Source: Bacteroidota bacterium | GTDB taxonomy: Bacteria > Bacteroidota > Ignavibacteria > SZUA-365 | Reading direction: 5' to 3' | Length of the DNA stretch: 38,874 nucleotides | NCBI GenBank assembly: GCA_014860565.1 | Contig: JACZJN010000010.1 | Span: 1 to 38,874, forward strand | Part shown: one piece after another, positions 1,852-28,289 of the stretch | Layout of the letters: every line of letters begins with the position of its first letter | Numbering within the stretch: the stretch's first letter is position 1 | The notes under the pieces: generated by a model | What the model was told of the DNA's origin: nothing | Databases searched by the model: none | The model's input: only the letters and a program-made list of their open reading frames with translations | Program-made: the position numbers and the translations under genes

Positions 1852-3516
1852 ATGTTTATCCGTGCCAAGAAACGAGGACCCCACACCTACCTGCATATCG
1901 TCGAGAACGAACGCGTCGGCGACAAGGTAGTGCAGCATCTGCGACACAGTCTCGGTCGCCTCGACAAACTCCAGGAAAGCGGCGCCCTCGATTCCTTTCT
2001 CGCCTCCGGTCTCAAATTCGCCCGGAACCTCAACGTCCTCGATGCGCACGCACGCGGAGAAACAACCACAACGAAAACCGAACGTATCGGCGCCTCGCTC
2101 TTGTGTGAACGCTTGTGGCAGGAATGCGGCATCGCCGGAATTCTCGACCGTGCACTCACGGATCGTCGCTTCGAGTTTCCAGTCGAACGCGCTGTTTTCG
2201 TCACCGTGATGCATCGGTTTTTCTCGCCCGGCAGCGATCGCGCCGCCGAGTACTGGATGCGTCGCTATCGCATTGACAGCAATCCTGCTCTGCAACTCCA
2301 GCATCTCTACCGTGCCATGGCCTGGCTCGGCGAAGTGATCGACGAAGGGGGCGAGAAAAGGTCGAAGGGCGCACCGCCGCCCGTACGCCGGGTCAAGGAC
2401 GAAATCGAGGAAGCGCTGTTTGCGGCGCGGCGGGATCTTTTCAGCGATCTCTCGCTGGTGTTCTTCGACACGACGACACTGTACTTCGAAGGTGCGGGCG
2501 GAGAGGACATCGGCCATCGCGGCCATTCGAAGGACCATCGACCCGGGGATCCGCAGATGGTCGTCGGCATGGTGCTCGACAACCAGGGCAATCCGGTCTG
2601 TTCGGAGATGTGGCCGGGCAACACCGCGGACGTTACCTCGCTCGTTCCCGTAGCCACCCGGCTCAAGGAACGCTTCGGCATTGAACGCGTGTGCATCGTG
2701 GCCGATCACGGAATGATCAGCGAAGAAACGATCGCCGAACTCGAGAAAATGCAATGGGAATATATCCTCGGCGTCCGCATGCGCCGCTGCAAGGATGTCT
2801 CGCTGGACGTGCTCGGACGCGCCGGACGATTCCGGCAGGTTCATGGTGAGCGAAAGCAACCAAAGGATCCCTCGCCGTTGCGTGTCAAGGAAGTCCGGTA
2901 CGCCGGACACCGCTTCGTGGTTTGCCGCAACGACGAACATGTGCGTAAGGACCGGCACGACCGCGCGGCGATTCTCGCCGCCTTGCGCGAGCAGATCAAG
3001 CGCGGAACGAAATCGTTTGTCGGCAACAAAGGCTTTCGCCGCTACCTGAAAACCAAGGGAGCGAAGTTCGAAATCGATGAAGACAAGGTGCGCGAAGAAG
3101 AACGCTACGATGGCACCTGGGTGCTGCGTACGAACACGGCGATATCGACCGAGGATGTCGCGTTGAAATACAAACAGCTCTGGATGGTGGAGGCGATGTT
3201 CCGCACGATGAAATCCGTGCTCGAAACCCGTCCGATCTATCATCACAACGACGCAAGCATCATCGGTCAGGTGTTCTGTTCGTTTCTGGCAGTGGTGCTG
3301 CGGAAAGAGTTACAGGATCGCATCGCCCGAAGGGGTTGGAAGCTCGAATGGAACCGGATCGTCGAAGATGTCGATGCCATCGAAGAGATCACGGTACATC
3401 ATCAGAATCTGATCTTCCGGCTACGGACTGAAGCGACCGGTGTCGCCGGGAAAGTCTTCCAGGCGGCGGGAGTAGCGCTTCCTCCCGTCTTGCGTGACGG
3501 ACCACCGGAGGGGTGA
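1852..3516 (+). CDS. IS1634-family transposase
   Basis: 554 residues, the usual length for IS1634-type (IS4-superfamily) transposases, which excise and insert their element with a DDE active site. Visible landmarks are FFDTTTLYFEG (first Asp, about residue 205), CIVADHGMISEETI (second Asp, about residue 285) and YKQLWMVEAMFRTMKS (acidic residue in a Y-x2-L-W-x-VE-x2-FR-x2-K signature, about residue 445). The frame is uninterrupted. The ATG is the first possible codon after the promoter. Codon use is GC-rich like the host genes, so composition does not mark it as foreign. A long open frame on the opposite strand is a shadow of this gene. Confidence 0.9.
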   Translation: MFIRAKKRGPHTYLHIVENERVGDKVVQHLRHSLGRLDKLQESGALDSFLASGLKFARNLNVLDAHARGETTTTKTERIGASLLCERLWQECGIAGILDRALTDRRFEFPVERAVFVTVMHRFFSPGSDRAAEYWMRRYRIDSNPALQLQHLYRAMAWLGEVIDEGGEKRSKGAPPPVRRVKDEIEEALFAARRDLFSDLSLVFFDTTTLYFEGAGGEDIGHRGHSKDHRPGDPQMVVGMVLDNQGNPVCSEMWPGNTADVTSLVPVATRLKERFGIERVCIVADHGMISEETIAELEKMQWEYILGVRMRRCKDVSLDVLGRAGRFRQVHGERKQPKDPSPLRVKEVRYAGHRFVVCRNDEHVRKDRHDRAAILAALREQIKRGTKSFVGNKGFRRYLKTKGAKFEIDEDKVREEERYDGTWVLRTNTAISTEDVALKYKQLWMVEAMFRTMKSVLETRPIYHHNDASIIGQVFCSFLAVVLRKELQDRIARRGWKLEWNRIVEDVDAIEEITVHHQNLIFRLRTEATGVAGKVFQAAGVALPPVLRDGPPEG

Positions 3517-3578
3517 AAACCGTCCACTACACTCTTTCGAAGCCCGTAGTCCGTTGATATTGAATAACTTCACTTTTG

Positions 3579-3595
3579 AAACTGTTCAACTTGAG
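3579..3595 (-). repeat. Right terminal inverted repeat of the IS1634-like element
   Basis: AAACTGTTCAACTTGAG, inverted match to 1683-1699; followed by the CTTCA target copy. Confidence 0.85.
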
Positions 3596-3641
3596 CTTCA
3601 AGAACCGCCCTTTTGCGGAGGGCATAATCAGGAGACGCCAA

Positions 3642-4925
3642 ATGAATCAAGAACAATGTACGAAAGTGGATCACCTTCGTCAAATGCCAACGAGTCATGC
3701 AGACTGTAGAGAAACGCCTTCGCCTCCATCCCGCTCGATGCTCGACGAATACGTATACCAAGGAGCGCGGAAAATGCTGCAGCAAGCCATCGAAGAGTAA
3801 GTGCACCGGTACATCACCATACATGAACATCTTCGTGACGCCGTCGGTCATCGACTTGTCGTACGGAACGGATTTCAGCCACCTCGGAAAATCGTTACCG
3901 GTGCGGGCCAATTGGAAATCCGGCGTCTGCGGGTTCATGATCGTCGTGAAGGCCATCGATTTAGCAGCACCATTCTGCCGAAGTATCTGCGTCGCTCTCC
4001 TTCGATTGACGCCCTTCTCCCGGTCCTGTATCTCAAAGGCGTCTCGAGTGGCAATATGACCGAAGCACTCGAAGCAATTCTCGGTCCCGGTGCTCCTGGT
4101 CTTTCTTCGAGCACGCTTGTTGGACTCAAGGAGATCTGGCAGAAGGAATATCACGAGTGGACGCACCGTGATCTCTCGCAGAAGCAATATGCGTATTTCT
4201 GGGCTGATGGTATTTACCTCAACGTCCGCCTCGACGATGATCGCCCTTGTATGCTGGTGATCATGGGCGCAGTGGAGGATGGCACAAAGGAATTGGTAGG
4301 GATCCTTGATGGAGAACGCGAGAGCACTCTTTCCTGGAAGGAGCTGCTCCTGGTATTGAAGGCACGTGGATTGCGTATCAGCCCGAAGCTCGCCACCGAC
4401 GATGGAGCCCTGGGATTCTGGGCTGCGCTGGAGGAAGTCTATGGTGCGACCCGTCAACAACGGTGTTGGGTACACAAGACGGCGAACGTGTTGGACAAAA
4501 TGCCGAAATCCGTACAAGCCCAGGCGAAACGCAAACTCCATGAGATGTACCTTGCCGAGACGAAAGAAGCGGCACTCAAAGCGTTCGAGACATTCAGGGA
4601 GCTGTACGCGGACAAATATCCGAAAGCAACGCAGTGTTTAGTCAAAGACAAGGCCGTCTTGTTCACGTTCTACGATTTCCCACAGGAACACTGGCAGTAT
4701 ATTCGTTCGACGAACCCGATCGAATCCACCTTTTCCACTGTCCGGCATCGTTCCAGGCAAACGAAGGGATGCGGTTCGCGAGAGGCCACGCTCTCGATGG
4801 TCTACAAACTCTACCGAGAAGCGGAAAAGAAGTGGAGGAAGCTCAACGCGGCGCCGAAAGTGGCGCTGGTTCTGCGGGATGTAAAGTTCGAGAACGGAGT
4901 AGAAATGATCGCACAGGCAGCGTAA
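3642..4925 (+). pseudogene. IS256-family transposase with one in-frame ochre codon
   Basis: Mutator-type transposase. The ATG at 3642 follows CAGGAGA. The N-terminus MNQEQ...LDEYV..GARKMLQQAIEE runs into TAA at 3798-3800 (codon 53). Reading then continues in the same frame with VHRYITIHEHLRDAVGHRLVVRNGF through to the family's C-terminus. The catalytic regions are intact: YFWADGIYLNV (Asp), ATDDGALGFW (Asp), QRCWVHKTANVLDKMPKS and STNPIESTF (Glu). The family usually has Glu in this EE(E)V context, so a single GAA-to-TAA change explains the stop. No shift in frame is needed. About 427 codons overall. Unless read through or restarted at 3801-3825, it is inactive. Confidence 0.85.
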
Positions 4926-4936
4926 TCTCATCGTGA

Positions 4937-4969
4937 ATCAGGATGCAGCCAAAAATCCCTCATCCACAA
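4937..4969 (-). repeat. IS256-like right end (imperfect inverted repeat)
   Basis: ATCAGGATGCAGCCA and ATCCACAA, inverted counterparts of sequences at 1621-1668. Confidence 0.4.
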
Positions 4970-5371
4970 AATTTGGATATATCTCACTGCTTGATACAGA
5001 ATCGTCGACACCGCAGTCGGCCGAGCTTCTCACGTCCTGCCCGTGGTTCAGTAACTTGTTTTCACTGCATGACCTCACTTTCCCAATTCCCCGAACCACA
5101 GAGCCTTCATCTGCGTTATACGAGACAACCGACCTGCATCCCGGCAGATCCCAAACGTCTAACAGCCTGACGAAATATCACCACTTCACGAGCCAGAGTG
5201 CGACGATGGTACCATTCGCGATTGGGGACAACCGCGGCCTCCAACGGGAAAGAGATGATCGACCGTACACTGTATTTAATACTCGAATGTTGATTGCGTG
5301 AATCATCCGATATATAATCGAATACAACGCATCCAAGCCCATCGCCGCCCATTGTTTCGGCATGCCTGCAT
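4970..5371. other. 402-base gap between IS256-like and IS21-like elements; no supported gene
   Basis: Short open frames occur on both strands but none has a good ribosome site or a sequence I recognise. It is probably old intergenic DNA or a decayed gene between two insertions. Confidence 0.4.
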
Positions 5372-5413
5372 ATTCCGGAGTAATCCGACCATAGATTCCG
5401 ACGTTATCCGACC
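5372..5413 (+). repeat. Two 19-base direct repeats at the IS21-like left end
   Basis: ATTCCGGAGTAATCCGACC (5372-5390) and ATTCCGACGTTATCCGACC (5395-5413), 16 of 19 identical, 23-base period. IS21 ends are known to carry repeated transposase-binding sites like these. Confidence 0.6.
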
Positions 5414-5505
5414 ACGTCATGGGTACATGCTGCGGGAGCGAACCGAAGATGGCTCTTTTCCAAAAACTGCCGTATCCTCCGCTATTTCACAACGGAGAAG
5501 CGGCC

Positions 5506-6280
5506 ATGTCCAGAAAGAGAGCATCCATGAGAAAGATTAAAGAGGTTCTGCGTCTGGCGTACTTCGAGCACATGAGCGAACGACTGATCGCGCTCGGTTC
5601 GAACACACCCAAGACCGCGGTGCATGACTATCTCCTCCGTGCAGAGGAAGCCGGGTTGACCTGGCTCGAGGCGGAAGGGATGGATGAGTACACGATTGAG
5701 TGCTTGTTGTTCCCACCAACGAACACACCACAAACGAAGAAGACCGTACCGGACTGGACGTATGTCCATGAGGAGCTGCGCCGACCGCATGTCACGCTGC
5801 AACTGCTTTGGGAAGAGTACCGACAGGAGCATCCCGAAGGTTATTCGTACAGTCAGTTCTGTGAATTGTACCGGGGATACGTTCGCACTCTGGACGTGAG
5901 TATGCGGCAGACACATGCACCGGGAGAAAAGGTCTTCGTCGATTACAGTGGAACGCGCGTGGAGGTTGTCGATCCGAAAACAGGTGAGCTGCGAAAAGCA
6001 GAAGTGTTCATCGCCGTGTTCGGTGCAAGTAACTACGCCTATGCCGAAGCGACTTGGACACAACGCCTGCCAGATTGGATTGGTTCACATACCCGTGCCA
6101 TGATGTACTTCGGCGGGGTCCCTGCGGCGATCGTACCGGATAATCTTAAAAGCGGTATCAAGGATCCGCTCTATTACGACCCGGAGGTCAATCCGACCTA
6201 TCAGCGATGGGCAGAGTACTACGGCGTAGCGATACTGCCGGCACGGGTGCGCACACCAAAGGACAAAGCCAAGGTCGAGG
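5506..6280 (+). pseudogene. istA: IS21-family transposase IstA, C-terminally truncated
   Basis: The ATG at 5506 has GGAGAA upstream (5494-5499); an earlier in-frame ATG at 5419 lacks one. MSRKRASMRKIKEVLRLAYF begins the helix-turn-helix region. Catalytic-domain landmarks follow: VFVDYSGTRVEVVDP, AIVPDNLKSGI and RVRTPKDKAKVEV, the last holding the third acidic residue. Only about 258 codons of a protein usually near 500 are present. At about 6278-6284 the sequence changes to an unrelated gene. The frame then runs out of register through that gene to a stop at 6531. The IstB ATPase partner is absent, so this copy cannot transpose by itself. Confidence 0.85.
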
Positions 6281-7837
6281 TCCTCCTGGACGGGGATTGT
6301 CGCACGCAACAATGCAAACGTGGAGCTTCATGGGGTCGCCATCAGCGCCGCCGGGGTCATTGCGGGATCGGATGCCTTCGTGACGCTCGACAGTTCCTGT
6401 TCCATCCTCAACACCTACGCAGCGTTGACGAACATGGGTGCGACGATCCGCAGTACGGGGACGCAATCAACCAGTGTCGCCTCGCATCTGATCTCGACAG
6501 GCAGCGGACGCTCGGTTCTCACCCGCGATGAGTCAACAGGCGCATCATACCCGACAGCGACGGCGATCGATGTCCTGCAGAACAGCCAGCATGTCAAGAC
6601 GGACGAATGTATGTTCTCGGGATTCTGGCGCGGTGTCCGTCTCGAGGAAGCCACGCTGGTGGGGGACGCAAACGAGGACTTTCCTGCCGATGGAGGGAAC
6701 AACAGCATCCGCGCCACGCAGTGGGGGCTGATGGCGATGGTGAAAAGCGAAATCGACTTCGGCACGTTCGTTTCTGTACCAGCCTGGGAATCACATAATG
6801 AAATCGTCCTCACCAGCGGGACGGGCTACCATGCCGCCGTGGACGGCACGAGCATCATCTATGCCCGTCAATGCTGGTGGGATCCCGTGGATACCAGCAG
6901 CACACCACCGATCAACATTCTCGGCAACGATGTCGAATATGTCGCGCGTTTGACTACCGATCCGATTCCATTTACCGGCAGCGGTGGCGCGAGCTTCGTG
7001 GGTGCAACCGCATTCGGGAAAACGACGACATCCCCGCCACCGGTGGATGTGCGCGGCTTGGTCAAGCAGGCCCTGGCGCAGCGGGATCCGGGGCGCGTTC
7101 GCCATCTCGGCGGGCAGTTCCTGCAATCCTCGGCGGCACCGACGGCGGATTTCAAGCTCCTGCGCTTCCTGCATCGGGCGCTGCGCACCGCGGATGCACG
7201 CGGCAGCGTCGATTCTCTGCTTGCGCTCTGCCTATCACGAACCGATGTGGAGTCGAAGTTGCTGGCAGCGGATATCATTTCCGAGGACAGTCTGTATTCC
7301 GACGCCTTGCAGGTTCTGAATTCCTACAGTTTTGCCGGATCCACGGAACTGACCAAACGGGCCCTCGTCCGCAAGGCGCTGCTCTATCCGCGGGCATACC
7401 GCGGGGGATACCGTGACGGGCTTCTCGCGATCGATTCCCTGCGTTCCATGAACGACAGCACCCTGCTCCGCTTCGTGGGGCTCTATCCGCTGCTCTACAG
7501 CAGATTATCGCATGCGGAAACCTCGATCATACCCAAACGGGCAGTGACTTCCTTCATCGATCCGTCAATTCCGTCAACCATCGACGTCTGGCCCAACTAT
7601 CCGAATCCCTTCCGGGATGTGACATCCTTCACCTTCAAACTCGGGGAGGACACGCATGTACGCCTCGCCGTCTATGACGCAATGGGACGGGAGGTGGCGG
7701 TCGTCACCGATGCGGATTACAGCCGCGGTGTGCATTCCGCCGTCTTGCGCAGCAGTGGTTTACCGAGCGGATTGTATTTCTACCGGCTCACGACGGATCA
7801 AGGTGTGATTCAGCGGAAGATGCTCTTGATGCGATAG
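6281..7837 (+). pseudogene. Secreted T9SS-cargo protein missing its 5' end
   Basis: Frame 2 reads WTGIVARNNANVELHGVAIS immediately after the IS21 break, which fits the middle of a parallel beta-helix-like secreted protein. A hydrophilic, helical stretch follows (about 7050-7550), then the C-terminal block WPNYPNPFRDVTSFTFKL ... VRLAVYDAMGREV ... GLPSGLYFYRLTTDQG ... QRKMLLMR. That block is a standard T9SS type A sorting domain, which directs proteins across the outer membrane in Bacteroidota relatives. About 518 codons remain. There is no signal peptide or native start. The GTG at 6320 is only the first possible initiator and has no ribosome site, so the gene is probably dead, although its 3' half is undamaged. 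Confidence 0.75.
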
Positions 7838-7873
7838 AAACCTGCATTTCGGGTGAATACTATGGCCTGAAAA

Positions 7874-7912
7874 CGGCCCGATTCCCATCGCGAGTGTCGG
7901 GCCGATTGTATT
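7874..7912 (+). terminator. Hairpin terminator between T9SS relic and lysS
   Basis: CGGCCCGA (7874-7881) pairs perfectly with TCGGGCCG (7897-7904), 15-base loop, followed by ATTGTATTT. The T-run is poor, so strength is uncertain. Confidence 0.5.
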
Positions 7913-7934
7913 TCACCCCCGCCCGCCGTATGTT
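7906..7934 (+). promoter_or_regulatory. Putative lysS-pcrA promoter
   Basis: TTGTAT (7906-7911), 17-base spacer, TATGTT (7929-7934), 41 bases before the lysS ATG. Four of six bases match the consensus in each box. Confidence 0.45.
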
Positions 7935-7975
7935 TTAGATCCGACAGTATTGAAACAAACACAGCGAATCTCCTG

Positions 7976-9487
7976 ATGGAACAAGGCCAGACCGAAGACC
8001 TGAATGACCTGAGGCGCCGCCGGCGCGAGGAATACAACGAACTGCTCGCACACGGCGTACAGCCGTTCGCCTACGAATATCCGGTCGATGCGGAAGCTGC
8101 CGAAGTGCTCGCGAGCTTCACCGACGAAGCGCCGCAGCGCACGGTGAAGATCGCCGGACGCATCATGACCATGCGACGCATGGGCAAGGCGTCGTTCGCG
8201 CATATCATGGATCACACCGGCAGAATACAGATGTACGCCAAACGCGACGACCTCGGCGAGGAGATGTATGACGCGTTCAAGCTGCATGACATCGGCGATA
8301 TCGTGGGCGTGACGGGGTATGTGTTCCGCACGCGCACGGGCGAGGTGTCGGTGCACGCGCAGTCGATGACTCTGCTGGCCAAGTCCCTGCGTCCGCTGCC
8401 CGTGCCGAAGGAAAAGACCGACGAGCAGGGCAACAAGGTGGTCTTCGATCAGTTCACCGACAAGGAACTGCGCTACCGCAAGCGGCCGCTCGACCTGATT
8501 CTCAATCCGTCGGTGAAAGAGACGTTTGTCAAGCGATCCCATCTCATCCGCGCGATGCGGCAGTTCCTCGACAACCGCGGCTATATCGAGGTCGAGACCC
8601 CGGTGCTGCAGCCGCTCTACGGCGGCGCCGCCGCGCGTCCCTTCGTGACGCATCACAACGCGCTGGACATCCAGCTGTACCTGCGCATCGCCGACGAACT
8701 CTATCTCAAGCGTCTGATCGTGGGCGGCTTCCACGGCGTGTACGAAATCAGCAAGGATTTCCGCAACGAGGGGATGGACCGCAACCACAATCCCGAATTC
8801 ACCATGATGGAGCTGTACGTCGCGTACAAGGACTACCGTTGGATGATGGAGCTGGTCGAGGAAATGCTCTTTACCATCAACCGGGCGGTCAACAACAGCA
8901 ATACTGCCATGGTGGGAGGAAATGAAATCGATTTCACTCCGCCATTCAAACGCCTGACTATGTTCGATTCCATCGCCGAACATACCGGCGAACAGCTGCG
9001 CGGACTCGACGAGTCCGGTCTGCGCGCCGCCGCGCGCCGACTGGGCGTGCATCTCGAAGACAGCGCGGGTCCTGGAAAGATCATCGACGAGATTTTCTCC
9101 GAGCGTGTCGAGGACAAACTCATTCAGCCCACGTTCATCACCGACTATCCGCTCGAACTTTCTCCGCTCGCGAAAAAGCATCGCACGGAAGAGGGCCTGG
9201 TCGAGCGTTTCGAGCTGTACATCAACGGACAGGAAATCGCCAACGCGTTTTCCGAACTCAACGACCCGATCGACCAGAAGGAGCGCTTCACCGAGCAGGC
9301 GCGTCTGCGCGCGCGCGGCGACGACGAAGCGATGACCTTCGACGAAGATTACATTGAAACTCTGGAATACGGCATGCCGCCGACGGCCGGACTGGGCATC
9401 GGCATCGACCGTCTGACCATGCTACTCACCGGCGCGGAATCGATTCGCGACGTCATCCTGTTCCCGACCATGCGCCCGGAGAAATAA
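7976..9487 (+). CDS. lysS: Lysyl-tRNA synthetase, class II
   Basis: 503 residues, normal for bacterial LysRS, which charges tRNA-Lys with lysine in the cytoplasm. An OB-fold anticodon-binding domain (about residues 60-150, [20 protein letters not shown]) precedes the class II catalytic domain. Motif 2 is [14 protein letters not shown] (about residues 261-274) and motif 3 is [15 protein letters not shown] (about residues 470-484). [13 protein letters not shown] is also typical of the family. The ATG at 7976 follows a weak CTCCTG stretch rather than a good ribosome site, but the following residues fit the family start. The pcrA start lies nine bases after the stop, so the two genes are probably cotranscribed. 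Confidence 0.96.
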
Positions 9488-9496
9488 GCGAGCTTC

Positions 9497-11719
9497 ATGT
9501 CCTTTTTAAGCAAACTCAATGCCGTCCAGCGCGATGCCGTCGAGACCGTTGACGGTCCCGTGATGATCGTGGCGGGCGCGGGCAGCGGCAAGACGCGTGT
9601 CCTCACTTTCCGCATTGCCCATCTCCTGCATCAGGGCGTGCCGGCCCACAACATCCTCGCACTGACCTTCACCAACAAGGCCGCGCGCGAGATGCGCGCG
9701 CGCATCGAGGCTGTCGTGCCCGGCGAGGCCGCGCAACGCATCTGGATGGGGACCTTCCATTCCACTTTCGCGCGGCTCATGCGCCGCGATGCCGAACGCA
9801 TCGGCTTTCACCGCAATTTCTCGATCTACGACACGGAAGATTCCCTCGGTGTGATCAAGGGCATCATGAACGACATGGGCATCAACACGCAGCAGGTGTC
9901 CCCAACCGCCGTTCGTCATGCGATCAGCAGTGCGAAAAACCGCATGATGACTCCCGCCGATCTCGCCAACAAGGCCTTCGAGATATTCGAGCAGAAAGTG
10001 GCCGACGTGTTCGCCGAGTACGTCAAGCGTCTGCGGGCGTCAAACGCGATGGATTTCGACGATCTGATCCTGCATCCGATCCATCTCTTCGACAGCAATC
10101 CCGACGTACTCGAACGCTATCAGCAGCAGTTCCGCTACATCCTGATCGACGAGTACCAGGACACGAACCAGGCGCAGTACCAGATCGTACGGCGTCTGGC
10201 CGAGGCGCAGCGCAACATCTGCGTCGTGGGCGACGACGCGCAGAGTATTTACGCGTTCCGCGGAGCGGACATTCGCAACATCCTCGAATTCGAAAAGCAT
10301 TTCAAGGATGCGCGCGTGTTCCGGCTCGAACAGAACTACCGTTCGTCGAAAAACATCCTCGCCGGCGCAGATTCGGTGATCAAGCACAACAAGAAGCAGA
10401 TCCCGAAATCGCTGTGGACGGATAATGACGCGGGCGAACTGATCACGGTGCTGGAAACCGCCGACGAAGGCGAAGAGGCGTACAAAATCGTCACCTGCAT
10501 GCAGGACGAATCACGCCGACGGAAACTTCAGCTCAACGACTTCGCGATTCTCTACCGCACCAACGCGCAGAGCCGCGCGATCGAAGACGCCATGCGCCGC
10601 AGCGGCATTCCCTACACCATTGTCGGCGGAGTGGAATTCTACCGTCGCAAGGAAATCAAGGATGTGCTCGGCTACCTGCGTCTGATCGTCAATCCCGATG
10701 ACGACGAAGCGGTGCTGCGGGTGATCAACTATCCCACGCGTGGCATCGGGCAGACATCCATCGCCCGCCTCCGCGGCTATGCCGCAGATGAAGGCGTGCC
10801 GATGTTCGTCGCCGCGATCAACGTCGCGCAGGCACCCGGCATGACCGGCGCGGCGATCAAGCGGGTCGAGGAATTCGTCCGCCTGATCCAGAAATACGCA
10901 TCGCTGCGACGGGAAATTTCGGCCGGGGAGCTGGTCAGTTCTCTGATCGACGAGCTGGGCCTGATCACGGCATTCAAGAACGAAGGGACCTCCGAGGCAC
11001 GCATGCGCATCGACAACGTGCAGGAGCTGCTTTCGGCCATCGTCGATTTCGTGACCGACGACGGACAGAACACGCTCGAGGCGTTTCTCGAACAGGCGTC
11101 GCTGGTGGCCGACATCGACAGCTTCGACGAGTCGCGCAACGCGGTCACGCTCATGACGCTGCATGCCGCGAAGGGACTCGAATTCCCGGTGATCTTCCTT
11201 GTCGGCATGGAAGAAGGACTGTTTCCCTCCTCCATGGCGATCGAGCGCGACGAGGTGGAGGAGGAGCGTCGTCTGTGCTATGTCGGCATGACCCGCGCGA
11301 TGCAGAAATTGTACATGACGCATGCACGTTCACGCGTGCGTTGGGGCGAGCGGCTCGAACAGGTCTCTTCGCGATTTCTCGATGAAATCGATCCCGCGGT
11401 CGTGCAGCGCGATTCCACACGCAGGCGGAGTGCGCCCAGCAGCACGGCGTTCAGCGGCAACGGTCGGTCCACCGCAACCGCGCAACGCCGGAAGCCGACG
11501 CCCCAGCGTTCCGAATACAATCAACTCGGCGGTGCGGAATCCTACTCCCAGCTTGACGGTGACATCTCGATCGGTTCGACGGTGATGCATGCGACCTTCG
11601 GCCGCGGCAAACTGCTGTCCATCCAGGGCGCGGGCGACATGGCGCGCGGGGTCGTGCTGTTCGACTCCGTCGGAAAAAAGACACTCGTGCTGAAATTCGC
11701 CGGACTCAAACCCGCCTGA
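9497..11719 (+). CDS. pcrA: UvrD/PcrA-type superfamily 1A DNA helicase
   Basis: 740 residues, an ATP-driven 3'-5' helicase for repair and replication-conflict clearance. Motifs in order: Q motif LNAVQRDAV (7-15), Walker A AGAGSGKT (26-33), LTFTNKAAREM, Walker B DEYQDTN (about 218), VVGDDAQSIYAFRGADI, LEQNYRSS, VTLMTLHAAKGLEF and EERRLCYVGMTRA. The C-terminal 50 residues (SIGSTVMHATFGRGKLLSIQ ... VLFDSVGKKTLVLKFAGLKP) are the Tudor-like tail that contacts RNA polymerase in PcrA/UvrD. UvrD and PcrA cannot be told apart with certainty by eye. A short low-complexity linker (residues 640-690) precedes the tail. It follows lysS by nine bases. Confidence 0.95.
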   Translation: MSFLSKLNAVQRDAVETVDGPVMIVAGAGSGKTRVLTFRIAHLLHQGVPAHNILALTFTNKAAREMRARIEAVVPGEAAQRIWMGTFHSTFARLMRRDAERIGFHRNFSIYDTEDSLGVIKGIMNDMGINTQQVSPTAVRHAISSAKNRMMTPADLANKAFEIFEQKVADVFAEYVKRLRASNAMDFDDLILHPIHLFDSNPDVLERYQQQFRYILIDEYQDTNQAQYQIVRRLAEAQRNICVVGDDAQSIYAFRGADIRNILEFEKHFKDARVFRLEQNYRSSKNILAGADSVIKHNKKQIPKSLWTDNDAGELITVLETADEGEEAYKIVTCMQDESRRRKLQLNDFAILYRTNAQSRAIEDAMRRSGIPYTIVGGVEFYRRKEIKDVLGYLRLIVNPDDDEAVLRVINYPTRGIGQTSIARLRGYAADEGVPMFVAAINVAQAPGMTGAAIKRVEEFVRLIQKYASLRREISAGELVSSLIDELGLITAFKNEGTSEARMRIDNVQELLSAIVDFVTDDGQNTLEAFLEQASLVADIDSFDESRNAVTLMTLHAAKGLEFPVIFLVGMEEGLFPSSMAIERDEVEEERRLCYVGMTRAMQKLYMTHARSRVRWGERLEQVSSRFLDEIDPAVVQRDSTRRRSAPSSTAFSGNGRSTATAQRRKPTPQRSEYNQLGGAESYSQLDGDISIGSTVMHATFGRGKLLSIQGAGDMARGVVLFDSVGKKTLVLKFAGLKPA

Positions 11720-11987: not shown

Positions 11988-12686
11988 ATGCGCAACACAA
12001 TTTTTCTTCCGCTGTTCGTTCTTCTGACCTGTTCCGCCCTCGCCCAGACCGCCGATTCCGGCATTCCGATCTCGCTCCATCAACAATTCAGCGCGCCCGC
12101 CATCCCCTTCGATGAGGCTATCGAACAACCGGGCGCTCCCGACGCCACGGCGACGGATGTTCGGCAATGGCAGCCGTATGATGGGGGGACGATCATTCTG
12201 CAGTCGGCGCTCGGTGCGGCCGGAGGAGTGCTGTTTGCTTACGCCGGCTGGGGCATGGGGAGCCAGAAAGGAGGATTCAGCGGATTTATCGACGGTATTG
12301 CCACCGGGTATCTGATGGGCAGCATCATCGGTGTGCCCGTGGGCACGTATCTCGGTGGCACGCTGATGGGTGGTGACGGAGCGTTGTGGGCAACGCTCGT
12401 CGGGGGAGGTGTCGGGTGTGCGCTGGGCGTCGTCGCATCGCAGGTCGAGGACCCGTCTGTTGGCACGCCGCTTTTCATTATCGGTACAATTGCTCCCCCG
12501 ATACTCGGCTATCATCTCAGCGCGGGAGGAGAGAGAACATCCATCCCTCCCAGCCCCGCCATGGGCAATAGTGCAAACGGACACAGGGTGATCACACCGC
12601 CGATGTCGAAACCTTTCCGCCAGGGAGCCGATCCCACCGTTCCGCGTCCCGACGTCAGTTTCACACTTCTGCGCGTGCCGCTGTGA
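11988..12686 (+). CDS. Exported glycine-rich membrane protein, tandem paralogue 1
   Basis: 232 residues, family not recognised. A signal peptide (residues 1-20, cleavage likely after SALAQ) is followed by a hydrophilic stretch with DATATDVRQWQPYDGG, then four hydrophobic glycine-rich segments (about 66-90, 100-128, 132-152 and 160-180). GxxxG-type spacing occurs in them (LGAAGGVLF, MGSIIGVPVGTYLGG, VGGGVGCALGVV). The soluble tail ends in DPTVPRPDVSFTLLRVPL. AGGGA lies upstream of the ATG. The next paralogue overlaps its stop. Glycine-zipper segments suggest packed helices in a membrane, but whether inner or outer membrane is unclear, and no function can be assigned. Confidence 0.7.
   Translation: MRNTIFLPLFVLLTCSALAQTADSGIPISLHQQFSAPAIPFDEAIEQPGAPDATATDVRQWQPYDGGTIILQSALGAAGGVLFAYAGWGMGSQKGGFSGFIDGIATGYLMGSIIGVPVGTYLGGTLMGGDGALWATLVGGGVGCALGVVASQVEDPSVGTPLFIIGTIAPPILGYHLSAGGERTSIPPSPAMGNSANGHRVITPPMSKPFRQGADPTVPRPDVSFTLLRVPL
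12627..12679 (+). repeat. 53-base perfect direct repeat, copy 1 (second copy 13475-13527)
   Basis: This segment encodes the shared C-terminal tail of paralogue 1 and is identical over 53 bases to 13475-13527 in paralogue 2. A 24-base core recurs at 14224-14247 in paralogue 3. Identity at DNA level, higher than in the rest of the genes, suggests recent duplication or gene conversion. Confidence 0.85.
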
Positions 12687-13534
12687 GCAAGGCGCCGCGG
12701 CAACCCAGCGATCATCAGAGGAATTCATTCCTCCCGCCGTGCGAGCGGCGGATGTATTCTGCATCATTGTCGATTGATCATGGACGTCGACAAACGCATT
12801 CCGCTGCAAGTTTCGCCACGCTCCGCGTCTTGTCGCTGCTGCTGTTATTATCACCTTCAAGCCTGCTTTACGCACAGGTATCGTTCGCTCCGTCCACTGA
12901 TTCCAGCATTCTGATTTCCTTTCGTCAGCACTTCAGCGCAGCAGACGTCCTCCCCGGGCGGAATTTCCCGGAGCGCAGTTTGACCGATGCCACGGCGATC
13001 GATGTCCCGCAATGGCAGCCGTACGACGGTCGGACGATGTTGCTGCAGACCCTGCTCGGAGCGGCAGGAGGGGCCGCCGTCTTTGCGGTCGGGTATGGCA
13101 TCGGCGGTTGGCATCAGGAGGGATTGGACGAACTGGCCCACCTTGTTGTCGGCTATTTCCTCGGCACTGTCGTGGGGATTCCGCTCGGCGTCTACTACGG
13201 CGGCGAACTGATGGGAGGGGATGGAAAGCTCTGGCCGACGATTGTATGCGGACTTCTTGGAAGCGGACTCGGGGGCGTCGCGCTCGGCATCACTCGCGAG
13301 CAGGAAATCACAATTCCACTTTTTGTCATCGCAACGATTGCGCCTCCCATCATCGGGTACCATGAAAGTGCCGCATACATCGGAAGATCGAGACCCGCGG
13401 CATTGCCCTCGGAGAGTCGCGTGCATGGAGGCGGGGAAAATGCTCCGTCGATGTCGATTTCCATCCGTGCATGTGCCGATCCCACCGTTCCGCGTCCCGA
13501 CGTCAGTTTCACACTTCTGCGCGTGCCATTATGA
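12683..13534 (+). CDS. Exported glycine-rich membrane protein, tandem paralogue 2
   Basis: Up to 283 residues, clearly homologous to the gene before it: TDATAIDVPQWQPYDGRTM, then glycine-rich hydrophobic segments (LLGAAGGAAVFAVGYGIGG; VVGYFLGTVVGIPLGVYYGG; GLLGSGLGGVALG; FVIATIAPPIIGYH) and the same tail DPTVPRPDVSFTLLRVPL. The start is uncertain. GTG at 12683 overlaps the previous stop by four bases (GTGA), which suggests coupling, but ATG at 12752 gives a more normal signal peptide (LRVLSLLLLLSPSSLLYAQ, cleavage after YAQ). Function unknown. The next gene overlaps its stop as ATGA. Confidence 0.7.
   Translation: MSKAPRQPSDHQRNSFLPPCERRMYSASLSIDHGRRQTHSAASFATLRVLSLLLLLSPSSLLYAQVSFAPSTDSSILISFRQHFSAADVLPGRNFPERSLTDATAIDVPQWQPYDGRTMLLQTLLGAAGGAAVFAVGYGIGGWHQEGLDELAHLVVGYFLGTVVGIPLGVYYGGELMGGDGKLWPTIVCGLLGSGLGGVALGITREQEITIPLFVIATIAPPIIGYHESAAYIGRSRPAALPSESRVHGGGENAPSMSISIRACADPTVPRPDVSFTLLRVPL
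13475..13527 (+). repeat. 53-base perfect direct repeat, copy 2
   Basis: Identical to 12627-12679; encodes the conserved C-terminal tail of paralogue 2. Confidence 0.85.
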
Positions 13535-14280
13535 GCGGGGCAGTTGTATCGAAACGAAATTGGCCGAGGGGTTGTTTCATATTCGCGCTGATGATTTTAC
13601 TCCTGGCACCATCAAGTCGGCTTTGCGCACAGATACCATCCGACCCGAAAGCGCTCCCCGTGGATCCGCTGCTCCCGGGCGGAGATTCGAGTATCGTCAT
13701 CCGTGGGTGGAAGCCGTTTCATCCGGGAGAGATGGCAATGCAGACCGTCGTCGCAGGGGGATCTTCCGTCGTCATCGGAGTTCTCGGTGCGTTCGTCATC
13801 AGCGGATTATCGAATGCCACGGGAGAATCGAGTCTTGGTGTCGCCGTCCTCTCTTTTTATGTGAGCGGTGCACTGATCGGGGTGCCGTACGGCATCGACC
13901 TTATCGGGAAGCTGTATGGCGGGAATGGCAGCTTCGTCGCGGCAATGGGCGGGGCGCTGCTCGCCACGGGCATCACCATCGCGACAGTGGATGCGCTTCC
14001 GCACGGACATCCCGAAGCCGATATCGCCGGGTGGTCGCTGTTCGCCACGCATTTCATCCTGCCACTCGTCGCCTGGCATCTGACCGCCTCGCCGGTCGCG
14101 GAGCAACGGCGTGGCTGGCCGGAGGAGGTGCGGCTGTTTCCCGCGGACGACGGCTCCCATTCCTTCACACGGATGCCGACATGGGGTACCGCAGCGATGC
14201 AGGACGTGGGTTTCACACACCGTGATCCCACCGTTCCGCGTCCCGACCTGCAGATGACGGTACTCAGACTGCGGTTCTGA
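13531..14280 (+). CDS. Exported glycine-rich membrane protein, tandem paralogue 3 (divergent)
   Basis: 249 residues starting at the ATG that overlaps the previous stop (ATGA, 13531-13534). The signal peptide is CFIFALMILLLAPSSRLCAQ. The fold resembles the two preceding genes: VIRGWKPFHPGEMAMQTVVA replaces the QWQPYDGG region, hydrophobic glycine-rich segments follow (GVLGAFVISG, VSGALIGVPYGIDLIG, GGALLATGITIATV, LFATHFILPLVAWHL), and the end is DPTVPRPDLQMTVLRLRF. The final Phe and alternating pattern resemble an outer-membrane beta-signal, but the hydrophobic core looks helical, so this may be coincidence. Overlapping starts imply that the three products are made together. Function unknown. 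Confidence 0.7.
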   Translation: MSGAVVSKRNWPRGCFIFALMILLLAPSSRLCAQIPSDPKALPVDPLLPGGDSSIVIRGWKPFHPGEMAMQTVVAGGSSVVIGVLGAFVISGLSNATGESSLGVAVLSFYVSGALIGVPYGIDLIGKLYGGNGSFVAAMGGALLATGITIATVDALPHGHPEADIAGWSLFATHFILPLVAWHLTASPVAEQRRGWPEEVRLFPADDGSHSFTRMPTWGTAAMQDVGFTHRDPTVPRPDLQMTVLRLRF

Positions 14281-14308: not shown

Positions 14309-14344
14309 GCAAGGAGATTGCGAAAGTCATCGCAGGGAAGTAAC

Positions 14345-14872
14345 ATGCCGGCGGCTCCGAAAAACCAAGATGGAGTGGAGGTGCTCACCATGCTGCCGAA
14401 CGGAATACTGGGAATACTCTCAAACGATACCGCGCTTGTTGAACGCTTTCTCGCTGCGCACCGTCACCGATGCTCCGACGGACAGACACTGCGGATCGAA
14501 ACGCCTCACTGCGGGGGAGTTGTCCTGGGAAGCGCGATATCCCAGGCATCCTCCGCCGCCACACATTTCTCGCGCAGCGATGATGACGAATGTATCGGAG
14601 TATTCAACGGTGTGGCGTTTGACGACTGGGCGGTCGAAAGGAATCCACATTCGCTGGCACACCTTTCAACGCAGGAAATCGACTCCGGCGCCAATGGCAT
14701 GTTTCTCACCTGCGCTGCAGACGATAACAGACTTACCTTGATAACCGATCCATGGGGCACGCTGCCAGTGTACACCCACGAAAGCAAGGACGCGTTCGCG
14801 TTTTCAAGCTCACTCCATGCGCTGGCTGAATCAATGATAACGGATATAGCGCTCCGAAATGGGGGGGGGTAA
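14345..14872 (+). CDS. Asparagine-synthase-like protein, N-terminal part (frameshifted)
   Basis: 175 residues from the ATG at 14345 (GGGAAG upstream); TTG at 14318 is less likely. The later part resembles the N-terminal glutaminase-like (Ntn/GATase II) domain of asparagine synthases: ECIGVFNGVAFDDWAVE and LTLITDPWGTLPVYTHES followed by FAFSSSLHALAES, equivalent to the D.xGxxPLYY...FASExKAL block. The catalytic N-terminal Cys is absent, so glutamine hydrolysis is unlikely. The frame ends in TAA immediately after nine G residues. The rest of the domain structure continues in another frame from 14869, so this and the next entry are one gene. It starts 65 bases after the membrane-protein cluster. 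Confidence 0.65.
   Translation: MPAAPKNQDGVEVLTMLPNGILGILSNDTALVERFLAAHRHRCSDGQTLRIETPHCGGVVLGSAISQASSAATHFSRSDDDECIGVFNGVAFDDWAVERNPHSLAHLSTQEIDSGANGMFLTCAADDNRLTLITDPWGTLPVYTHESKDAFAFSSSLHALAESMITDIALRNGGG
14861..14869 (+). other. Run of nine G at the frame break: possible slippage site
   Basis: Nine consecutive G directly precede TAA at 14870. Ten or seven G would join the upstream frame to GTAAGCCAG... in the downstream frame, giving RNGGGVSQILTFG without a stop. It could be phase variation, transcriptional slippage, a fixed mutation or a homopolymer miscall. Confidence 0.7.
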
Positions 14873-14913: not shown

Positions 14914-16137
14914 GTGTACCCGAATATTCGCAAACTCGGTCGCGCAAGGGTCTGCCGTGTGCATCGAACGCCGCAATCCCTGACATCGAGCACGGAGGAG
15001 TATTTCACGCCAGTTGTCGAACCCTCTGAATATCGCGGCATCGATGACGACATCGTCGATTGCTTCCGCGTCGCGGTACGCAAGCTGCATCGGAAATCGG
15101 AAGGGAGCATGGTCTGCACGCTCTCGGGGGGAATGGACAGCAGGGTCGTGGCTGCAACCGTCGCCGCTGATGGACTCGACCTTCCCTTCGCGACGCATGC
15201 CGTGCGCGAAGGACACGATGTACGCATCGCCCGCACGATCGCCGAGCGGCTGCACCTGCGGCATCGTGTCATCAATCTTCCGACCGTCCTGCCGCTCGAC
15301 TTCTGTTCAGCCCGATTTCTCGGAGGGAGCAATGGCGCACTTGCGTTCGACAATTATCATGTGATGTGGGCGTATCCGGAGTACGCGAAACTCGGTCGCT
15401 TTGTGATGGACGGCGTGCATACCTCCATCGAAGGGCGATGGTTTCTGCGTAATAACAGTCAACAGGCTCGAAACCGGGATTCCTTTTTTCGTCGAACTTT
15501 CGAAGCGTTGCTGCGTCCGGAAATCCTGAAACATGTGAACGAAGCGGACCGCCACGTGCATCTCGCAAGTGCTATTCTGCAGGCAGTGGTACCGGATCCG
15601 GCCGACTATGTTTCTCCGGGTTGTTGCGCGGACGTGTTCAATGTTCAAACAGTGCTGCCGAATCATGGAGCCGACGGCGCGCTGCTGCAGAACAATTATC
15701 TCCGATACCTTTCACCGTATCTCGATCGCGACTATGTCTCGGTGATTTCACGAGTCGCGGAACACAAGCGCTGGGCCCAGTACCCACAGCGACTGATCGT
15801 TCGCAAACTCGCACCGCAGCTTTTACGCGTGCCGCGTTCGTATTCAGACATCCTCACGTGGCCGACGGACAATCCATATCTGCTACGGATGCCGGTGGCA
15901 CTCGAACGAGTGAATAGCCTGCTATTCAAGCAGCGTTGGCCGGCATTGTATCACCGACTCTCCCGCCGTTCGACCACCCTCGGGTACGATCTCGCATGGG
16001 GCGCGGGATTCGAGCCAGACGGTGGTTTCCGCGCATTCTTCGATTTCCCGGGGGAAATGAAAATACCGGGTGTTCCCGGTTCGCATGTCTCGACGGATAT
16101 CCAATCCATGTTGCATTTATTCGGCATACCAACGTAG
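14914..16137 (+). CDS. Asparagine-synthase-like protein, C-terminal PP-loop part
   Basis: 407 residues from the first possible initiator GTG (14914), but the frame is open from 14830 and homologous sequence (VSQILTFGTTFDGQTVYPNI) begins right after the poly-G tract, so this is not an independent gene. TLSGGMDSRVVAATVAADGL is the ATP-pyrophosphatase loop of the asparagine synthase C-terminal domain, which adenylates a carboxylate before amidation. The later part (DGVHTSIEGRW, YLRYLSPYLDRDYVS, RVPRSYSDILTWPTDNPYL) fits AsnB-like proteins of exopolysaccharide or secondary-metabolite loci, whose substrates vary. With part one it would be about 600 residues. The stop TAG lies inside a perfect palindromic repeat. 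Confidence 0.7.
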   Translation: MYPNIRKLGRARVCRVHRTPQSLTSSTEEYFTPVVEPSEYRGIDDDIVDCFRVAVRKLHRKSEGSMVCTLSGGMDSRVVAATVAADGLDLPFATHAVREGHDVRIARTIAERLHLRHRVINLPTVLPLDFCSARFLGGSNGALAFDNYHVMWAYPEYAKLGRFVMDGVHTSIEGRWFLRNNSQQARNRDSFFRRTFEALLRPEILKHVNEADRHVHLASAILQAVVPDPADYVSPGCCADVFNVQTVLPNHGADGALLQNNYLRYLSPYLDRDYVSVISRVAEHKRWAQYPQRLIVRKLAPQLLRVPRSYSDILTWPTDNPYLLRMPVALERVNSLLFKQRWPALYHRLSRRSTTLGYDLAWGAGFEPDGGFRAFFDFPGEMKIPGVPGSHVSTDIQSMLHLFGIPT

Positions 16138-26538: not shown

Positions 26539-26845
26539 TGGAGCACTCTATATAAATGTTTTTGAATGTTGGAAATTCTCTCTTGCCGCGGTTTGCTATT
26601 CCACCTTCCGAGGTGGTCGACGATGAGAAACCCACTGGGCCGTCATCGAAGTGAAACCTGGTCTGAATCGACACAACGCACTGATGATTCTTCATCAGGA
26701 CATTGCCAAGTGAGAATGGAGGTGAGAGGTGTGTCCAATCTAACCTCTTTTTTGTAAAAGTCAAGAGGAAAACGCAATTTTATCTGGATTTAGTATGAAA
26801 ACGCTTCCCCGAAAATTGTGATGCCGAGGGGAGCGGTAACCCTTT
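26539..26845. other. Divergent intergenic region with small hairpins
   Basis: Contains CCACCT-TCCG-AGGTGG (26601-26616) and AGAGGT...ACCTCT followed by TTTTT (26725-26753), which could be a weak terminator. A 63-codon plus-strand frame here (26566-26757) has no ribosome site or recognisable sequence, so I do not call it. Confidence 0.35.
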
Positions 26846-26875
26846 TTGCTGAAAAGTGTCACATCTACGTAGTAT
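26846..26875 (+). promoter_or_regulatory. Putative promoter of the beta-barrel gene pair
   Basis: TTGCTG (26846-26851), 18-base spacer, TAGTAT (26870-26875) running into TTTTGG, 24 bases before the GTG start. Confidence 0.35.
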
Positions 26876-26898
26876 TTTGGGATCAAAGACGGGTCCAT

Positions 26899-27606
26899 GT
26901 GAAGAATCTCACTCTCATCTTGACAATTCTGCCGATGCTGCTCCCCAGCCTGAACCTGGAAGCGCAGCCGAGCATTCCGTTTCGGGCAGGTCTGCAGGTC
27001 GGCATGGCAGCCGAACGCAGCAGCTACACATGGATGGGGAGCGGCGATGCGAAAACGACGCTTGACGTGGAAGCGCAGCAAAACGGATTTCTTGGGCTCA
27101 CCTTCGATTTCGTGCTGTCGGGACAATTGCTTCTGGAATTCGGCCCTCATTACGGACAGCGCAATGTCCCCATCGCCACACTCCAGCGCCTCGGAGGGGT
27201 GAATTTCACTCTCCGTCAGGATCCTGTCGATTATCTCGGCATTCCTGTCATCCTCAAGGTACTTCCGTTTGTTGACGGACTCGTCCTTCCCTATTTCGGA
27301 GCAGGCATGGAGTTCGGCATGAACTTGTCGTCCCTGCATGTGAGCATCGATGAGTTCCGCATTGCAGAAGAACCGCCGTTCTCCCGCACCATCTCCCGCA
27401 CCCGCAATCTCAACCAGCTCTACAGCTCGGTGCTTGCCGAAGCCGGGATCGACATCCATGCGTCAGCGGACTGGTCCGTGTTGCTCGGGGTACGCTATTC
27501 ACAGGAACTTACCCCGCTGCTCGAAGATCCGCTGCTGACCTGGGAAACGCCTCATAACTGGAAGGTGCGCTTCGCGGTGCTGTACACCTTCGGGGAGGGA
27601 CTGTGA
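26899..27606 (+). CDS. Outer-membrane beta-barrel protein, first of a pair
   Basis: 235 residues from GTG 26899, chosen because it places a signal peptide at the N-terminus (VKNLTLILTILPMLLPSLNL, cleavage after LEAQ). Upstream in-frame codons encode a non-coding-like sequence. The mature part alternates polar and hydrophobic residues and has aromatic girdles (PFRAGLQVGMAAERSSY, LGLTFDFVLSGQLLLEFG, VLPYFGAGMEFGMNL, WSVLLGVRYSQEL, WKVRFAVLYTFGEGL), as in PorT-like small barrels of Bacteroidota. The stop overlaps the next start (GTGA). Its role is not known; such barrels may be structural or transport-related. Confidence 0.65.
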   Translation: MKNLTLILTILPMLLPSLNLEAQPSIPFRAGLQVGMAAERSSYTWMGSGDAKTTLDVEAQQNGFLGLTFDFVLSGQLLLEFGPHYGQRNVPIATLQRLGGVNFTLRQDPVDYLGIPVILKVLPFVDGLVLPYFGAGMEFGMNLSSLHVSIDEFRIAEEPPFSRTISRTRNLNQLYSSVLAEAGIDIHASADWSVLLGVRYSQELTPLLEDPLLTWETPHNWKVRFAVLYTFGEGL

Positions 27607-28289
27607 GACGCGTGACCACGCTGCTCTGCACCGCGGTACTGCTGTTGTCAGCCGCCGTGTCGGCGCGGGCGCAGCAAACCAATGATGCACCCGCGATGCG
27701 GATCGGATTGCACGGGGGTGTGCAGACCAGTCTCTTTCGGTACAGCGTTTTCCCGTATGAAGGCGAATTCCAGTCGACTGTCGAACAGAGTACTGTCGCG
27801 GGAATTACGCTCGGACTGCCGATCGACGCCTCGTTTCAGTTGCAGGTGGATATCGCATGGTGGTCGCAGCCCTGGTCGGCGTTCCACGACGGTGATCCGA
27901 AAATCGAGATAGAACGGCGGAACCGGGCGCTCGTCGAGTTTCCGGTCTTGCTTCAGTACCGTTTCATCACGCTGCCTGTGCCATTGTATATCGCCGCGGG
28001 TCCGGTAGTGTCTCTCGTGAGCGATGGGGAGAAATCCTACTCCGTCAGTTATACCGGGTTTTCCGAGCGTGAAGGCTGGCGCACCTCCCGGCGCGACTAC
28101 CATGAAGAAACGCTGCATCTCGCCGTGGCCGGAGAAGTGGGGATAGAAATGCCGTTCAGTGCGTCCCTTTCGATGCAGATGGCCGTTCGACTTACCCAAC
28201 CGCTCGGAAAATCGGTGTCGACGCAGGACTTTACTCTCAGGGAACTTTCGGTCTGGCGCGCACGCATCGGATTTCTTTACACGCTGTGA
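27603..28289 (+). CDS. Outer-membrane beta-barrel protein, second of a pair
   Basis: 228 residues from GTG 27603, which overlaps the previous TGA by four bases (coupled translation likely). The signal peptide RVTTLLCTAVLLLSAAVSAR is cleaved after ARAQ. Strand-like amphipathic segments follow (MRIGLHGGVQTSLFRYSV, SFQLQVDIAWWSQPW, LVEFPVLLQYRFI, YIAAGPVVSLV, LHLAVAGEVGIEM, LSMQMAVRLTQPLG, WRARIGFLYTL), ending in the hydrophobic/aromatic pattern of an outer-membrane barrel. It resembles its neighbour in layout. The specific function is unknown. Confidence 0.68.
   Translation: MRRVTTLLCTAVLLLSAAVSARAQQTNDAPAMRIGLHGGVQTSLFRYSVFPYEGEFQSTVEQSTVAGITLGLPIDASFQLQVDIAWWSQPWSAFHDGDPKIEIERRNRALVEFPVLLQYRFITLPVPLYIAAGPVVSLVSDGEKSYSVSYTGFSEREGWRTSRRDYHEETLHLAVAGEVGIEMPFSASLSMQMAVRLTQPLGKSVSTQDFTLRELSVWRARIGFLYTL

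Follow-up and report, generated by a model that had tools for sequence, protein, structure and literature searches.

Three tandem paralogues at the locus

The window analyzed here is a 38,874-nucleotide stretch of a contig from a Bacteroidota bacterium of the class Ignavibacteria. Within it, three consecutive open reading frames, designated P1, P2 and P3, encode paralogous proteins, and all three were confirmed at the coordinates given in an initial annotation of this DNA (Table 1). P1 is 47% identical to P2 and 28% identical to P3. By inspection, each paralogue has near its N-terminus a hydrophobic stretch that ends in an AQ-type cleavage site, which upholds the signal peptides that had been annotated.

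Table 1. Features of the P1-P3 locus (positions in the window)
Feature	Position	Strand	Remarks
P1	11988..12686	+	232 aa; signal peptide, four-helix glycine-zipper body and tail
P1 signal peptide MRNTIFLPLFVLLTCSALAQ	11988..12047	+	By inspection; hydrophobic core KD11 2.7
P1 four hydrophobic Gly-rich helices	12183..12527	+	AF2 prediction; residues 66-94, 96-126, 133-150, 156-180
P1 tail DPTVPRPDVSFTLLRVPL	12630..12683	+	C-terminus, 18 residues
P2	12683..13534	+	283 aa (GTG 12683) or 260 aa (ATG 12752)
P2 tail DPTVPRPDVSFTLLRVPL	13478..13531	+	18 residues, identical to P1
P3	13531..14280	+	249 aa from ATG 13531; body orthologous to second copy of G010
P3 four helices	13723..14085	+	AF2 prediction
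P3 tail DPTVPRPDLQMTVLRLRF	14224..14277	+	C-terminal
53-nt putative gene-conversion tract	12627..12679 (P1) = 13475..13527 (P2)	+	Identical sequence
24-nt block	12630..12653, 13478-13501, 14224-14247	+	Codes DPTVPRPD; identical in P1, P2 and P3

The initial annotation read both gene junctions as start-stop overlaps and deduced from them coupled synthesis in fixed proportions. The ATGA overlap between P2 and P3 (13531-13534) is real, whereas the GTGA overlap between P1 and P2 holds only if P2 starts at the GTG at 12683. This start would place ~45 residues ahead of the signal-peptide core; with the alternative start (ATG 12752) the n-region is shorter and 65 nt separate the gene from P1. Coupling of P1 and P2 is therefore uncertain, and overlap of genes does not in itself imply fixed proportions. 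A 7-bp GC hairpin (12734-12751) lies directly 5' of the alternative P2 start.

The neighbors of P1-P3 are uvrD on one side and an asparagine-synthase-like gene on the other; CoA-binding genes are also found in the flanks. The asparagine-synthase-like gene is split into a GATase_7 part (14318-14872) and an Asn_synthase part (14914-16137) in different frames; G001, a close relative, has one long ORF, and the split looks like a frameshift or an assembly error. Elsewhere in the window, three different transposase/integrase genes (DDE_Tnp_1, Mutator type and rve) stand in a row at 1852-6531, and two adjacent overlapping genes at 26818-28289 resemble outer-membrane barrels, with the ends VLYTFGEGL and GFLYTL; the second matches PF13568. 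A gene at 6320-7837 carries a type IX secretion (T9SS) C-terminal sorting domain (Por_Secre_tail, E 9e-8), which indicates that the host uses type IX secretion. It is located three genes upstream of P1, ahead of a lysyl-tRNA-synthetase-like gene and uvrD.

An undescribed family of exported proteins

Searches of Pfam, NCBIfam, PHROG and PDB sequences returned nothing credible for P1-P3, and none of the glycine-zipper families in Pfam and NCBIfam scored above its curated cut-off. The initial annotation had recognized no family, and no match to a known one emerged in the family databases. Profile searches for homologues, the check that had been proposed, did reveal a wide undescribed family. With profiles widened stepwise (alignments A1, A3, A8 and A10) and matches on the signal peptide alone discarded (e.g. 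L155-L160), members were found in 37 of the 391 genomes of the class, representing 26 of 190 genera (A8), and in a small number of other classes within the phylum (A10). A related-locus search with a six-row alignment yielded four genomes, all already known. Judged by their sequences, P1-P3 belong to an undescribed family of exported envelope proteins.

In other genomes of this taxonomic family, the gene follows a uvrD/pcrA helicase gene; the named records of these genomes are metagenome assemblies of Bacteroidetes/Ignavibacteria. G001, G002 and G005 have one copy, and in G001, where the P1 orthologue is 62-64% identical, and in G002 the next gene is asparagine-synthase-like. G010 has two overlapping copies on a short contig; VAQHS repeats at the contig end, where the first copy starts (L034 3-86), are probably an assembly artefact. 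Since close relatives have one or two copies, three are not required. Tandem, partly overlapping paralogues nevertheless recur, with three copies each in G000 and G544 in addition to the two in G010. We rejected a conserved operon, as the neighbors differ between genera.

Four glycine-rich segments had been annotated in each protein. Each paralogue does have four hydrophobic glycine-containing segments, but those of P3 are less glycine-rich (4-18% glycine per helix versus 16-29% in P1). AF2, run on monomers with eight sequences only and carrying no information on the tail, predicted four helices for mature P1 (46-74, 76-106, 113-130 and 136-160 in mature-chain numbering) and for P3, with a pLDDT of about 80-90 in the helices; in both, the N-terminal segment and the tail were unstructured and no strands were predicted. 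Across the orthologues in the same taxonomic family, the invariant positions of the body include (i) W.P and Q before and in helix 1, (ii) the glycines and the P of G.P.G around helix 2, (iii) GG.G at the turn between helices 2 and 3, and (iv) H..A after helix 4. Hydrophobicity of the helices is moderate (KD19 1.3-2.1), and the P1 body has one K/R only. From the hydrophobicity we infer that P1-P3 are located in a membrane; helix hydrophobicity and K/R content are compatible with either the inner or the outer one and do not decide between them.

Foldseek against solved folds gave no match under E 0.001. In a comparison with TIM17/22/23 and other four-helix glycine-zipper folds, VIA gave Z 5.6 to TIM23 and Z 9.0 to the membrane domain of dolichyl-P-mannose synthase, a range that helical bundles often reach by chance; for this reason we do not read the Z of 9 as homology. 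Among the nearest described likenesses are PF13488 (Gly-zipper_Omp) and PF13441 (Gly-zipper_YMGG), which are likewise exported and whose hydrophobic helices, rich in glycine, presumably pack and oligomerize in a membrane. Unlike P1-P3, they have one short zipper, no four-helix body and no C-terminal ligand tail. Among 25 relatives, PF13488 matched one and PF13441 two, weakly.

Six relatives (L122, L123, L125, L127, L131 and L137) carry a domain that is absent from P1-P3. This SNase-like domain (PF00565), above the Pfam cut-off in four of the six, is inserted between the signal peptide and the helices, ahead of body and tail, and its profile is closest to Tudor-SN (SND1) repeats. In G544, two of the three tandem paralogues are SNase-fused. 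The catalytic glutamate of staphylococcal nuclease is E43; at the column aligned with residue 43, each of the seven domains has S, Q or N, and the SNase-like domains thus lack the catalytic glutamate. The fusions suggest that the helical module presents other domains at the envelope.

A C-terminal tail in a fixed register

P1, P2 and P3 share a tail, DPTVPRPD...T.LR.., that runs exactly up to the stop codon, as the initial annotation had described. It had been set beforehand that the proposal would fall if all homologues lacked the tail; it is present at the C-terminus across the wide family, including all orthologues in G001, G002, G005 and G010 (NPTVPRPDLEMTVMRVRF, DPVTPRPDVTYPLFSVRF, DPVHPLPDVQVTLLNISF, DPVTPRADVEFTVLRVAF and DAVRPRSDIQVTLLEVIF), and is thus not a chance match. 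A strict pattern (hydrophobic at 0, -2, -4, -5 and -7, polar between) ends 27 of 46 distinct members versus 0 of 685 unrelated proteins from a 0.95-Mb sample of this genome; the members are related, and the counts describe conservation rather than independent trials. Five more members have a recognizable strand followed by 1-20 extra residues, and about ten stop right after helix 4 and are tailless. P1-P3 helped to build the profiles, while the distant members were found mainly through the body and their tails were read off afterwards. A looser C-terminal pattern fits 1.5% of the background proteins.

Some tailless members are repeatedly paired, on the same strand, with a gene whose product starts AHKQSVHQYITREAF-like (L189, 7052-7567 with 3707-7012; L204, 6871-7488 with 7521-10511; L195, 3943-4563 with 3370-3894). 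Two of these three partners have a T9SS C-terminal domain.

In 26 tails, selected as those of tailed members, residues are hydrophobic in 100% at 0, -2 and -4, in 96% at -5 and -7, and in 0-8% at -1, -3, -6 and -8. The residue at -2 is usually I or V, R is the commonest at -3, and all 26 end in [VILM]-x-[FL]. Conservation extends to -9, and the linker and the N-terminus are much more variable than the tail. Family-wide conservation at the very C-terminus is expected of a recognition element, which is what the initial annotation had suspected.

Its further suggestion, a general signal for export or outer-membrane insertion, was not supported. No convincing tail was found on unrelated proteins among 6,182 ORFs of the 0.95-Mb sample, and a tail profile run against the whole genome and 15 relatives returned none on unrelated proteins beyond weak chance matches. 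The tail is thus confined to one family here and is not a general export tag; the body is predicted to be alpha-helical, and beyond -5 the tail no longer keeps the register of outer-membrane strands (see below). We also considered the tail as a mobile DNA repeat and rejected this, as the 4.75-Mb genome has only three copies, all inside the P1-P3 genes.

Gene conversion among the tandem copies

A tree of the bodies, from which the last 20 residues were removed, pairs P1 with G001 (96/98) and P3 with the second copy of G010 (99/98) as sisters. The tails of P1 and P2 agree in 18/18 residues, those of P1 and G001 in 10/18. At identical residues, codons are identical at 16/18 positions in the tail versus 42/88 in the body (P = 3e-4), and P3 shares 24 identical nucleotides with P1 and P2 despite a body that is only 20% identical. 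Gene conversion of the 3' ends within the tandem array is the simplest account of the near-identical tails. The earlier argument that the tail is shared because it is constrained therefore stands in part: the motif is truly conserved across the family, but the three-way near-identity is in part gene conversion, or concerted evolution. Two duplications would account for the tandem copies, an ancient one that founded the P3 lineage and a recent one behind P1 and P2.

A proposed membrane anchor with a docking peptide

Our leading proposal, which we put at slightly below an even chance, is that the family proteins are exported four-helix glycine-zipper anchors with a C-terminal peptide for docking in the periplasm, the partner being PDZ, BAM or self. 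The protein would be exported by Sec and its signal peptide cleaved. The mature chain would then consist of a short periplasmic N-terminal segment (with the SNase-like domain in some relatives), the four-helix bundle and, after a variable linker, a peptide of ~10 residues at the C-terminus. The glycine-zipper bundle would sit, and probably oligomerize, in a membrane as the anchor, leaving the C-terminal peptide, which ends hydrophobic-x-F/L-COOH, free on the periplasmic side. There, in the form of an extended strand, it may be bound by a partner that recognizes the ends of chains. The analysis shows the family, the helical body as a prediction, the conservation and register of the tail, its gene conversion and the SNase-like fusions; we infer the docking itself, the partner, the identity of the membrane and the oligomerization.

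The likeliest partners would be an HtrA-type protease, through its PDZ domain, or the BAM machinery. Of the two, we favor a PDZ-type reader of the HtrA family: the register shift and the helical body speak against BAM, and MucE and AlgW provide a precedent. The PDZ domains of DegS and AlgW read a C-terminal hydrophobic-x-F at positions 0 and -2, and in MucE, a periplasmic protein, the tail that AlgW reads is ...ELRWVF (PMC8545111). MucE of Pseudomonas aeruginosa, an activator of the HtrA protease AlgW, thus has a free PDZ-read C-terminus with the same layout as the L-R-[VI]-x-F that recurs here (PMC8545111), although position -2 is W there and I/V in our tail; a sequence relationship is not expected. 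PDZ_2 domains have 12 matches in this genome and occur in all 14 controls, and such ubiquity means that their presence discriminates nothing. Conservation to -9 goes further than a PDZ pocket needs, and the tailless members speak against a docking peptide.

Alternative readings of the tail

There are several other possibilities for the tail. It could be a structural strand and not a signal, pairing with its own N-terminal segment or with a neighboring subunit in a P1/P2/P3 hetero-oligomer. Recurrent tandem, partly overlapping paralogues (G010, G000 and G544), the likewise conserved pre-helix segment W.P(Y/F)D, and tails kept alike by gene conversion are all consistent with this. However, the AF2 monomers gave the tail neither a strand nor a contact, and the tail is kept in single-copy genomes, so that a hetero-oligomer is unnecessary. 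We consider this reading unlikely, yet it is the best of the alternatives and a serious competitor.

A similarly unlikely reading is that the tail is an outer-membrane assembly signal, read by BAM as a beta-signal, and that the proteins reach the outer membrane. Its last five residues (L-R-[VI]-x-F/L) match barrel ends of the same genome (e.g. LRFGL, LRFAI and VFKFEL), and a C-terminal aromatic residue is typical of outer-membrane proteins (PMC3582582). The beta-signal of outer-membrane barrels is likewise hydrophobic at 0, -2 and -4 with a C-terminal F/L (PMC3582582), but the register of the tail shifts at -5 and the body is helical. For comparison we took 13 outer-membrane-like C-termini from this genome, six of them belonging to or adjoining PF13568 matches and the others chosen by eye among exported proteins; they are hydrophobic at 0, -2, -4, -6 and -8. 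The tail follows this alternation at 0, -2 and -4 and then continues at -5 and -7 instead of -6 and -8. Beyond that point the registers are opposite: family tails are hydrophobic in 96% at -5 and 4% at -6, the barrel ends in 15% and 85%. The tail also has I/V rather than an aromatic residue at -2, and the bodies predicted by AF2 for P1 and P3 are alpha-helical, not beta-barrels.

A place for P1-P3 in type IX secretion, either in the pathway or in its surface machinery, is improbable. A T9SS cargo gene is located upstream of P1, and at 20 distant loci PF18962 was above the cut-off in 5 of 38 immediate neighbors, all on the same strand, versus 0 of 178 other flanking genes (post hoc P 1.3e-4). 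In a second set, the ratio was 3/30 versus 7/118 (P 0.33), which taken alone did not reproduce the enrichment; the combined P of 0.002 includes a first-set adjacency found post hoc. Several of the cargo pairs involve tailless members, and P1-P3 themselves are flanked by uvrD and the asparagine-synthase-like gene. The T9SS sorting domain is also C-terminal, conserved and carried by exported proteins of the same bacteria, but it spans 75 residues and is found on many unrelated cargoes, whereas the tail has ~18 residues and occurs in one family only; PF18962 matched none of P1-P3. We regard the adjacency of T9SS cargo to family genes as a lead.

Still less credible are contact-dependent or pore-forming antibacterial proteins like CdzC/CdzD of Caulobacter, a two-protein glycine-zipper bacteriocin system on the cell surface (PMC5380434): tandem glycine-zipper paralogues, the existence of glycine-zipper toxins (PMC5380434; PMC10240207) and the SNase-like domains of some relatives fit. 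However, the Cdz system uses type I secretion, aggregates and comes with an immunity gene (PMC5380434), none of which was seen for P1-P3. Their signal peptides are of the Sec type by inspection, no transporter or immunity gene was recognized beside them, and the SNase-like domains of the relatives are without the catalytic glutamate.

Implications for the family

Returning to the anchor with a docking peptide, gene conversion would keep the tails alike, as expected if all copies dock on the same partner. The SNase-like fusions together with gene conversion of the tail point to a shared partner as the reason why module and tail are maintained. More tentatively, and with clearly less confidence than in the anchor itself, the tail may be an unrecognized docking signal of the Bacteroidota-type envelope with a dedicated partner, tethering glycine-zipper proteins and nuclease-like domains to a common assembly, with gene conversion keeping it uniform among tandem copies. 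If it is a docking signal, it parts from the outer-membrane beta-signal at a single register step. The family is widespread yet unannotated, and its C-terminal motif is precise and testable.
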